Of a stretch of DNA of 54,446 nucleotides, positions 1,181 through 30,396 are shown one piece after another; position 1 is the stretch's first letter, and every line of letters starts with the position of its first letter. The notes under the pieces are model-generated. The model did not search any database. It saw only the letters and a list, made by a program, of their open reading frames with translations, and was not told where the DNA came from. The DNA is taken from assembly GCA_019246625.1 (NCBI GenBank), contig JAFAQB010000091.1:1-54446 (forward strand), written 5' to 3'. Position numbers and translations under genes: made by a program. Origin of the DNA: Nitrososphaeraceae archaeon (GTDB lineage: Archaea; Thermoproteota; Nitrososphaeria; Nitrososphaerales; Nitrososphaeraceae).

Positions 1181-1732
1181 TTAGGCTCTCCACCAGTCAA
1201 AGCCTATGAAATCAACCTTTTTTTCTTTAACTTTTGGAATTGCTAATATGAATTGCTTCTTGACTGTGGTAGCCAATCTGCCTGCAAGTACAATTCCAGT
1301 TGCTGTCATCTGCTCCATAGGTCTAAAGACTTGAACCAAGTATGGAGCATGGTCGATCCCTGGTCCATGTTCATATACTGCAAAGTCACAGCCAAATTTG
1401 ATTCCAGGAGATACTATGTATCCCTTATCTCTCAAGCTCTGAAAAACTTGATATTTCGTATCAAAATCGACATATTCTCTTCTGCAAATAGCTTTGATAC
1501 CCCTGAATGATATCTTCTTGCCATCAATATGATATACTTTTAATTTACCAGTATGAACTAGATAACATCCCTCTATCAAATCTAAAATTAAAGGAGTATC
1601 AAATTGTGTTCCTTTTGGTTTTGGAACGCCTAGAGGTTTGCCATAGTATCCATTTCCAAATAAAGTGCGAGATTCCTGTATACTCCAGACAACTATCCTA
1701 TTTTCTACTAATTTTCCAATAACAGGATTCAT
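1181..1732 (-). CDS. endA: tRNA-splicing endonuclease EndA
   Basis: 183-residue tRNA-intron endonuclease, which cuts both exon-intron junctions of bulge-helix-bulge motifs in pre-tRNA. The C-terminal catalytic domain has the expected triad: Tyr120 in FAVYEHGPG, His128 in IDHAPY and Lys158 or Lys159 in TTVKKQF. The N-terminal domain holds a GNGYYGKP stretch near residue 26-33. The length is that of a single-domain archaeal subunit. Its ATG overlaps the stop of the upstream DUF47 gene by one base (TAATG), so the two are probably cotranscribed and translationally coupled. Two tRNA genes in this window with two introns each are direct candidate substrates. Whether it works as a homotetramer or pairs with a second subunit encoded elsewhere cannot be told here. 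Confidence 0.93.
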   Translation of the reverse strand: MNPVIGKLVENRIVVWSIQESRTLFGNGYYGKPLGVPKPKGTQFDTPLILDLIEGCYLVHTGKLKVYHIDGKKISFRGIKAICRREYVDFDTKYQVFQSLRDKGYIVSPGIKFGCDFAVYEHGPGIDHAPYLVQVFRPMEQMTATGIVLAGRLATTVKKQFILAIPKVKEKKVDFIGFDWWRA

Positions 1733-25272: not shown

Positions 25273-25726
25273 AATTGGTTAGTATCAGAGAATGATATAG
25301 AGAAGTTACTTTATAATGTAACTAACTTTTTATTTTTACCAACTCGTCAACATTAGAATATGGTCTGTTAAAAGTACTACAAGATAATGTAAAGATTAAT
25401 TTTAACTTATCTACAATTAGTTCTAGCATTGGTTTAGGTAAATTGTCTGGCAGTAAATTTTGAATAAATCGCTTGTGTAGTCACGACAACTATTTTTTCT
25501 AACAAAATTAGTCTTGACGATATCATATCTTCCAATTAAAGGTCAATTTATTACTATTCTAGAATAGATTAACTAATAGGCTATCGTTAGTACGTAAATT
25601 CTTTAACTTCTACCCCATCACATATATTGTAAATTTCCTAAATCCTTTAGTAACCACAATGCAATGATTAATTCATCAGTTTAAACCACATATTTTAAAA
25701 GTGCATTTTGAAAAAAGGTTCTATAG
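25273..25726. other. Intergenic region
   Basis: 454 bp of AT-rich sequence between the phosphatase start and the 3' end of tRNA-Leu. No coding sequence or RNA recognised. Confidence 0.4.
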
Positions 25727-25771
25727 TGCGGGGGGTGGGATTTGAACCCACGGACCCCTAAGGGATGAGGT

Positions 25772-25793
25772 AGCCCAGTCAAATATCCTAACA
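25772..25793 (-). other. 22-nt canonical tRNA intron (37/38)
   Basis: Bulge-helix-bulge with central helix CTCA and TGGG (one T-G pair), bulges GAT and CTA, and inner helix GTTA with TGAC. Cutting after the second bulge base gives A37 joined to A38. Confidence 0.88.
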
Positions 25794-25800
25794 TCTGAGC

Positions 25801-25825
25801 ATCGTGCCGGACAAATACGTCTGAT
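25801..25825 (-). other. 25-nt non-canonical tRNA intron in the anticodon stem (30/31)
   Basis: Bulge-helix-bulge with a fully Watson-Crick central helix CGTG and CACG, bulges AGA and ATG, and an inner imperfect stem TCAGAC with GTCCGG. Removal supplies G31, which completes the fifth anticodon-stem pair; without it the stem and U33 cannot form. Confidence 0.85.
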
Positions 25826-25997
25826 CTCACGCCTTTGACCAGGCTTGGCAACCCCCGCAATAAATTGCTGTGATATAATACGCCAATATATATCAATGAT
25901 AAAATCGTGATATCCATCTATACCATAAAGCATAGGAAAGCCTCTATACAGGGTTTAAATCAATAGTAATCATGGCATAAATTCCACTAATTTCCAC

Positions 25998-27297: not shown

Positions 27298-28446
27298 TTA
27301 TACGCCCTCTTCTCTACTTTGAAATTCTATTTCTAACTGCTTAATTAATGTTTTTTGTCTGTCATTTAATTTGGTTGGAACCTTAATATCGATTCTAGTA
27401 AGTAGGTCACCCTTACCATATCCACCATAGCGAGGCAGTCCTTTACCTTTAATTTTTAAAATAGTATTTGGTTGTGTACCCTGTGGAATTTTTAATTTTT
27501 CATGGCCGTCAAGCGTGGGAACTCGAACTTCTGTTCCAAGTGCCAGATCAGTAAATTTAAGATTAAGATTGTAAAGCAGATGACCGTCTTCTAATCTCTC
27601 AAATAGTGGATGTTGTCTAACATGGATTCTTATTAATAGATCTCCAGGAAATCCATTTTCGGATGGCTCTCCCTCACCACGCAATTGCAATGTCATTCCA
27701 TCCTCTACTCCTGCAGGAATTTCTATATCTATTTTCTTACTTCTTCTGACTCTGCCTGAACCATTACAGATATTGCAGGGTTTATCAATAATTTCGCCTT
27801 GACCTTGGCACGTTTGGCATGGCTCTAGTGATACAAAAGTGGAAAATCTATTTTGATTATATATATGTCTAGTTTGTCCTTGGCCGTTACAAACGCTACA
27901 TTTCTTTGGCTTAGTTCCAGGTGCAGCACCAGTTCCACCACAATTGTTACACTTCTCAAGTTTTGGTAGATCTAGTTTATCTTTTCTTCCTTTAAGGACG
28001 TCTTCTAGGGAAAGTTCAATGTCATAAATAATATCCTGTCCTTTTCTTCTACCTCCACCTCTACCAAAGCTAAAGCCAAAACCAAAAGGATCATTACCGC
28101 TCATACCGCTGAAACCGCCAGCACCACGGCCTCCAAATATCTGCTCAAAAATATCCTTAACACCACTGAATCCCATATCTCTGAAGACTTCATCGAAATT
28201 TGCTTCCGAGCCTCTGAATACCTCTTCGGCGCCAACATGGCCATATATGTCGTACCTTTTTCTTTTTTCATCGTCAGACAAAACAGCGTATGCTTCTGAA
28301 ATTTCTTTGAACTTTTCTTCAGATCCAGGTGACTTATTTCGGTCAGGGTGATACTGTAATGCTAACTTTCTGTATGCGTTCTTGATTTCTTCCTTACTTG
28401 CATTCCTACTAACTGTAAGAACATCATAATAGTCCCTCTTGCTCAT
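27298..28446 (-). CDS. dnaJ: Chaperone DnaJ (type I Hsp40)
   Basis: 382 residues: J domain with the HPD tripeptide in [11 protein letters not shown] (about 30-40), Gly/Phe-rich linker ([18 protein letters not shown]), four zinc repeats ([32 protein letters not shown]) and the C-terminal substrate-binding barrels. It stimulates DnaK ATPase and delivers unfolded clients. Third gene of grpE-dnaK-dnaJ, 54 nt after dnaK. Bacterial-type chaperones of this kind reached Thaumarchaeota by ancient transfer (family knowledge). Confidence 0.97.
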
Positions 28447-28500
28447 ATTTTCACACTCCTATGGTTCTTTATTATCAATAGTGTAAGATGTTGTTCAATA

Positions 28501-30396
28501 TTATGAAGGTGGAGGTGGTGGCGTTGTGTCTGATGTATTAGTACCTGAGTCAAATCCTCCAACATTAGACCCTGTACCGGCGGAACCAGTGCCATCTGCT
28601 GTTGCTCCTCCTGAGGTAGTAGTAGATGCAGAGGGGGCTCCTGCAGCTCTATAAGCTTCCGCGCTAACCTCACCAAGAATATTTTTCAATTCTTGCATCT
28701 TTGACCTAATATTGTCTACATTGTTGCTAGCAATTGCATCCTTCAAATCTTGAGCAGATTTGTTGACTCTGTCTACTTGTTCTTGTTTGATTTTATCTTT
28801 CAGATCTTGCTTTACTAGTTTTTCTGCTGCATAGGTCAAATTATCAGCTTCATTTTTGATTTCAGCCTCCTCTTTCTTCTTTTTATCGGCATCGGCAAAT
28901 CTTTCTGATTCTTTCTTTAGTTTCTCGATCTCTTCTTTTGACAGTTTAGTGTTTGCAGTTATAGTAATTTTTGCCTCTTTTGATGTAGCCATGTCTTTGG
29001 CTGTAACGTTCAAGATTCCATTCGCATCTATATCAAAAGTAACCTCAATCTGGGGTATACCTCTTGGTGCTGGGGGGATTCCAGATAGGTTAAACATCCC
29101 AAGCGATACACAATCAGATGCCATAGGTCTTTCGCCTTGCACTACATGAATCGTAACGGCAGTCTGGTAATCAGCTGCAGTAGTAAACACCTTGCTCTTT
29201 TTTGAAGGAATTGTGGTGTTACGCTCTATTAGAGGCTCTTTTAAACCACCAAGAACTTCTACACCTAGAGTAAGTGGTGTGACATCTACTAAAAGTATGT
29301 CTGTTGACACATCGCCGGAAATAATAGCTCCTTGTATAGCTGCTCCCATTGCAACAGCTTCCATTGGATCCACACCGCGTTCTGGCTCCTTACCCATAAC
29401 GTTTGCAACGAATTGTCTAACAATCGGCATTCTTGTAGGTCCACCAATCAATATGATTTTATCAACTTCATTTGGTGCTATTTTCGCATCCTGAATAGAC
29501 TGCATCATAGGTGATCTACATCTTTCAATTATTGGCCTCAGCAGCTCTTCTAGTTTTGCTCTAGTTAAAGACAATATAAGATTCTTTGGACCTGTGGTAG
29601 CATCGTATGCAAGAAACGGCAGATTAATTTCAGTAGTAACAATATTTGATAATTCAATTTTCGCTTTCTCTGCTGCCTCCCTTATCCTCATCATTGCAGC
29701 TTTGTCATTTCTAACATCTAATCCAGATTGCTGTTTGAATTCTTGGATAATATAATCAACCAAAGCATTATCCATGTCCGTTCCTCCAAGCTGAGTATCA
29801 CCAGAAGTACTTTTAACCTGGAAAACTCCTCCTCCCATTTCCATTATTGTAACATCCAGTGTTCCGCCCCCCAAGTCAAAGACCATAATTTTAAGATCTT
29901 TCTGAACCTTGTCCAATCCGTATGCCAATGAGGCAGCTGTCGGCTCATTGATGATCCTCACGACCTGTAATCCTGCAATTTCACCAGCATCCTTTGTTGC
30001 CTGCCTTTGGTTATCGTTAAAGTAAGCAGGTACGGTGATTACTGCTTTATCCACAGTTTCCCCTAGGAAAGCCTCAGCATCTCTCTTTATTTTTTGTAAG
30101 ATGAATGCAGATATCTGTTGCGGAGTGTACTGCTTACCAAATACAGTGAATTTAAAATCAGTTCCCATTTTGCGTTTTGCTGCAAGGACAGTACCTTCGG
30201 CATTTGATATCATCTGACGTCTTGCTGGCTCACCTACAATAAGCTGGCCTTCACGAGTAAAAGCAACAACTGAGGGGAACGCCTTTCCTCCAACAGAAGT
30301 ACCTTCCGCTGCCTGTATGATTGTAGGTTTACCACCGACCATCGCTGCCGCAGCAGAGTTGCTTGTTCCAAGGTCAATTCCTATAATTTTGCCCAT
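28501..30396 (-). CDS. dnaK: Chaperone DnaK (Hsp70)
   Basis: 631 residues. ATPase domain starts with [12 protein letters not shown]; phosphate loops [11 protein letters not shown] and [10 protein letters not shown] follow; then linker [10 protein letters not shown], the substrate-binding domain ([21 protein letters not shown]) and a helical lid. The C-terminal tail is Gly/Ser/Thr-rich and ends in five prolines (TTPPPPPS) rather than the acidic EEVD-type tail. The ATG is 2 nt after the grpE stop, so translation is likely coupled. Confidence 0.97.

Follow-up and report, generated by a model that had tools for sequence, protein, structure and literature searches.

The window (the whole stretch of DNA that was analyzed, 54,446 nt) belongs to the draft genome of a Nitrososphaeraceae archaeon (3.96 Mb, 96.8% complete) and carries on its minus strand, at positions 25858-25727, a tRNA-Leu(CAG) gene made of three exons of 33, 7, and 45 nt separated by two introns (Table 1). 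A split or permuted tRNA was ruled out, as the exons are collinear within 132 nt. By eye, an AT-rich, TATA-like stretch lies upstream of 25858, ahead of the gene, and a T6 run is found on the minus strand at 25711-25716, 10 nt past the tRNA 3' end. Two neighboring genes at 27298-30396, encoding DnaJ and Hsp70, are upstream of the tRNA and on the same strand.

Table 1. Coordinates in the window of the tRNA-Leu(CAG) gene parts and of the splicing endonuclease gene.
Feature	Positions	Strand	Remarks
Exon 1, nt 1-30	25826..25858	-	33 nt; homologue parse, orthologue comparison
Intron 1, 25 nt, position 30/31 (after G30)	25801..25825	-	Relaxed BHB, central helix C25-G28/CACG
Exon 2, 7 nt (GCTCAGA), nt 31-37	25794..25800	-	Contains the CAG anticodon
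Intron 2, 22 nt, canonical position 37/38 (after A37)	25772..25793	-	Central helix CTCA/TGGG
Exon 3, nt 38-73	25727..25771	-	45 nt; A73, CCA not encoded
EndA, catalytic alpha subunit of the splicing endonuclease	1181..1732	-	Endonuclease family matches

Neither ARAGORN nor Rfam at the gathering score detected this gene in the window. When the unspliced gene was presented alone and introns were allowed, ARAGORN wrongly called Arg(CCT) and placed a single 49-nt intron in the gene; once intron 1 had been cut out in silico, the call changed to Leu(CAG) with a 22-nt intron, and once both introns were gone, to a plain tRNA-Leu(CAG), evidencing that the canonical tRNA is restored. As ARAGORN called no gene in a one-intron relative (L171) either, its silence on intron-bearing genes of this kind means little. 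General tRNA finders thus overlook or mislabel a likely essential gene of soil ammonia oxidizers. All one- and two-intron readings of the gene were enumerated under the conditions that the anticodon stem be paired 5/5, that U33 be present, that the anticodon be one for Leu, and that the bulge-helix-bulge (BHB) helices have 4 bp; exactly one solution was obtained, with introns at 30/31 and 37/38; in shuffled versions of the 64-nt region a two-intron solution appeared in 1/3000 and a one-intron solution in 0/3000. This unique solution is the arrangement proposed by the sequence-only reading of this DNA, namely a 25-nt intron at 30/31, a 22-nt intron at 37/38, and a 7-nt middle exon with the anticodon between them.

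The same layout was recovered in a set of 43 homologues, for which 36 of the 37 family genomes of one search gave a homologue (the remaining one, G024, was dropped as it had no full-length match). Exon lengths were the same in all 43 and the exons were conserved, with introns of 13-36 nt and 13-44 nt, respectively. The two-intron layout was the sole strict solution in 28 homologues, and the other 15 showed the same layout with three of the four central pairs in the BHB of intron 2 (BHB2); in 5 of these 15 an alternative 37/38 junction is also possible, with a poorer outer helix. With the BHB geometry taken as a central helix of 4 bp flanked by bulges of 3 nt, which would be cut between their second and third nt, the predicted motif of intron 1 (BHB1) has 4/4 pairs in 43/43 homologues, and that of intron 2 has 4/4 in 28/43 and 3/4 in 15/43. 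A single-intron solution with a usable anticodon arm was found in none of the 43, which bears out the earlier judgment that a reading with one canonical intron fails.

Orthologues that lack one or both introns provide an independent view of the junctions. Only 5 positions set the uninterrupted orthologue of genome G041 (85 nt) apart from the window gene spliced in silico, and all of them lie outside nt 27-43, so that the mature stem and loop predicted previously are identical to a natural arm. An intron at 37/38 only is present in G098 and in G079 (10 nt in the latter), and a member of another order of the phylum, G719 (L203, G719:C98), has a 36-nt intron at 30/31 only, in a gene that encodes CCA; two genomes of the family of G719 (G674 and G695) gave no match to the 30/31 pattern. 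Hence, both sites are empty in the uninterrupted orthologues, G098 shows the intron 1 site empty and G719 the intron 2 site, and each site has been seen empty and filled independently. On these comparative grounds, which include natural intronless and single-intron orthologues, the two introns, their junctions, both BHB motifs, and the mature sequence are confirmed at the sequence level.

The exact two-intron pattern was detected in 65 stretches of the named genome collection, labeled mostly as Nitrososphaera, Nitrosocosmicus, Nitrosopolaris, Nitrososphaeraceae, Nitrososphaerales, or Thaumarchaeota. A few bear different names (e.g., Nitrosopumilus, Nitrosopumilales, bacterium, Asgard), which are presumed to be provisional names given by the depositors. 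Within the order, the pattern was present in 73/400 genomes, 63 of them among the 70 of the window's family f1, taken as Nitrososphaeraceae from these names and from shared contigs, and 10 in families f4, f7, f8, f14, and f16; two more genomes miss the pattern yet parse identically, namely G009, whose intron 2 is longer, and G040 from family f5. The complementary pattern, Leu(CAG) without an intron at 30/31, occurred in 222/400 genomes of the order (the per-genome table is complete), and in none of the 70 Nitrososphaeraceae genomes or of the 73 two-intron genomes. A broader 30/31 pattern matched 8/398 genomes of a phylum sample, that is, seven Nitrososphaeraceae genomes and G719, which lies outside the order.

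Pairing was examined in 71 unique cores, which leave out L095 and L140 (cut at the contig end) and L126 (not fitting the regular expression). Since the core expression fixed exon letters 23-26, 28-37, and 38-42 (with two options at 25 and 37), the tests concern only the intron-side letters, nt 27, and nt 43, and the invariance of GCTCAG[AG] is a property of the search. The central helix of BHB1 was paired in 283/284 cells, compared with 1/284 up to 63% when the partner was slid by 1-3 positions, and that of BHB2 in 264/284 cells, compared with 11-52% in the slid versions. The homologue parse and these slid controls agree with the helices CGTG/CACG and CTCA/TGGG named in the sequence-only reading. 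Nucleotide 27 faces nt 43 as T-A in 58 cores and C-G in 13, and faces its partner in intron 1 as T-A in 50, C-G in 13, and T-G in 8; it covaries with both rival partners, and where C replaces T both partners are G in 13/13 cores, although the C27 cores are probably related and may represent few events or one ancestral change. The first inner pair of BHB2 (G-C 41, A-T 16, T-A 7, C-G 2, G-T 1) was paired in 67/71 cores vs. a shuffled mean of 42.2, and inner pairs past the second were not above shuffles in the 71 cores. The outer helix of BHB1 would consist only of G24-C32 and G23-U33, which are invariant for other reasons, and its formation would open the D-stem.

The two motifs compete for the same strand. 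As the sequence comparison shows, BHB1 takes up nt 25-28 and BHB2 needs the stem 27-31, which places them in conflict over nt 27-28. The outer helix of BHB2 is the anticodon stem, with 6 bp after removal of intron 1 vs. 1 bp before it in 41/43 homologues. When structures were enforced (n = 43), BHB1 in the unspliced RNA had a median cost of 6.8 kcal/mol above the ensemble (3.2 for the central helix only), and the stem plus BHB2 had a median cost of 14.7 kcal/mol in the unspliced RNA and 4.4 kcal/mol after intron 1 removal. In the unspliced RNA BHB1 was cheaper than the stem plus BHB2 in 43/43, which favors removal of intron 1 first, although this energy gap arises partly by construction from the bulge penalty of intron 1. 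In unconstrained ViennaRNA folding, BHB1 had a mean probability of 0.14 before splicing and BHB2 one of 0.13 once intron 1 was removed, with values near zero for both in the RNA of the window itself; as a test of order such folding is mostly uninformative, with a weak or contrary outcome, and it usually misses the anticodon stem too. Based on the conserved, mutually exclusive pairing and the enforced-structure energies, it is likely that intron 1 is removed before intron 2. Against this order, free folding does not recover either motif reliably, and the energy gap is in part a bulge penalty. The ordered splicing suggested earlier is thus supported by the exclusive pairing and the enforced energies and weakly by unconstrained folding.

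With respect to the enzymes, the window's EndA retains a tyrosine, a histidine, and a lysine at the aligned catalytic places, which we take to be the catalytic residues. Its K38-P39-K40 aligns with K44-P45-R46 in the Crenarchaea-specific loop of Aeropyrum EndA (3P1Z), whose residues have been linked to relaxed substrates in the available portion of PMC12397907. Thaumarchaea are described as having two-subunit endonucleases in portions of PMC3218864 and PMC4090602, and a second, divergent PF01974 protein was found in 10/10 relatives checked. The draft genome of the source gave a single PF01974 hit and a beta subunit was not found in it, probably owing to a gap in the draft; RtcB is encoded elsewhere in this genome. 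The EndA to which the sequence-only reading had pointed for in vitro cleavage is indeed encoded, but it is the catalytic alpha subunit alone, and the enzyme comprises two subunit families in all 10 relatives checked. Accordingly, cleavage by the window's EndA alone would probably fail.

Altogether, this is very probably a working tRNA-Leu(CAG) gene interrupted by two BHB introns, of which intron 1 would be removed first and intron 2 second. Transcription, cleavage, and ligation are inferred, as is the order. In the transcript, BHB1 would form between nt 25-28 and the 3' end of intron 1, EndA and its beta partner would cut out this intron, and RtcB would presumably ligate G30 to G31. With intron 1 gone, nt 27-31 could pair unbroken with nt 39-43, thereby providing the outer helix of a canonical BHB at 37/38, and intron 2 would then be removed. 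A more ambitious proposal, which we consider doubtful, is that the gene acts as a splicing relay, in which intron 1 holds the strand required by the anticodon stem and the D-stem and its removal licenses cloverleaf folding and intron 2 removal; such a relay would have been kept across the whole family and six more families and would time folding, modification, or tRNA supply.

It is also conceivable, though rather unlikely, that the two introns leave in either order, with a two-subunit endonuclease of broad specificity cutting 37/38 as a relaxed motif despite the presence of intron 1. The K-P-K loop of the EndA alpha subunit, associated with relaxed substrates in portions of PMC12397907 and PMC6379350, would fit such an enzyme, the central and inner helices of BHB2 can form without the outer helix, and one homologue (L070) retains 4 outer pairs when unspliced; against this stand the more than 10 kcal/mol that separate the two medians for the stem plus BHB2 with and without intron 1, and the single outer pair left in the unspliced RNA of nearly all homologues. 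The reading of one single intron, or of a different isoacceptor as in the Arg(CCT) call of ARAGORN, is rejected as highly improbable, given that none of the 43 homologues allows a single intron and that the uninterrupted orthologues give Leu(CAG). We likewise reject, with very little probability left to it, a dead copy whose function is supplied by another Leu(CAG) gene: in a 96.8% complete draft such a copy could be absent from the assembly, but the uninterrupted Leu(CAG) pattern occurs in 0/70 family genomes, no uninterrupted Leu(CAG) was seen among 30 of the 31 tRNA matches of the own genome, and the layout persists over the 71 unique cores.

The preferred reading, sequential loss of two close introns, has precedents. 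The available portions of PMC8450103 and PMC3978253 describe close archaeal tRNA introns in which one must leave before the next BHB forms, so that the novelty implied earlier for ordered removal finds no support; nested, multiple, or close introns in archaeal pre-tRNAs were reported before (Sugahara 2007; Tocchini-Valentini 2009; both as cited in PMC3978253). Position 30/31 is among the tRNA intron positions listed in the portion of PMC4090602 considered, and tRNAscan-SE 2.0 included 107 non-canonical introns in Thaumarchaeota and a clade-specific BHB model (PMC8450103, main-text portion). With nested introns, sequential removal, and the 30/31 position published, the kind of gene is already known. 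In the nested archaeal pre-tRNAs, as far as these portions describe them, the introns are likewise so close that one precedes the other, which in the present gene is suggested by sequence; what differs here is that the isotype, the 30/31 plus 37/38 combination, and the 7-nt anticodon exon are all constant across an ammonia-oxidizing family. In the red alga Cyanidioschyzon merolae, multi-intron tRNAs lose their introns sequentially and 37/38 is always last (PMC3978253, available portion), as would be the case here, but the BHBs of the alga fold independently whereas the pairings of the archaeal gene are mutually exclusive. Caldiarchaeum subterraneum also has archaeal two-intron tRNAs, although its tRNA-Thr(GGU) uses other positions, 24/25 and 45/46 (PMC3293823, available portion).

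The two-intron tRNA-Leu(CAG) gene is not named in the main-text portion of PMC8450103 on thaumarchaeal introns, and the supplement of that paper or GtRNAdb may well list it; a literature search restricted to openly licensed papers returned none naming it. What is added here is the gene itself, the constancy of its architecture within and outside the family, and the orthologues that naturally have one intron or none. The resulting natural series in one orthologous tRNA, which runs from genes without introns through those with a single intron at 30/31 or at 37/38 to those with two, could serve as a test bed for ordered splicing and intron gain.

Some related genes were observed in the course of the analysis. 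The draft genome G051 has three two-intron Leu(CAG) copies with differing introns, on contigs C107, C128, and C270 (L066, L061, and L071, respectively). A contig labeled Asgard group archaeon LC30, of uncertain origin, carries at 324-405 a Leu(CAG)-like gene (L126) in which 30/31 and 37/38 both hold inserts and the 5' half is disrupted, perhaps by a third intron. In the window's own genome, other tRNAs with apparent non-canonical introns are misnamed by ARAGORN (L023 and L024), the first of which appears Asn-like by eye and is called Arg. Lastly, in G025 and G002 (L074 and L075) a gene resembling tRNA-Leu(UAA) shows an apparent insert in the D-arm together with one at 37/38.
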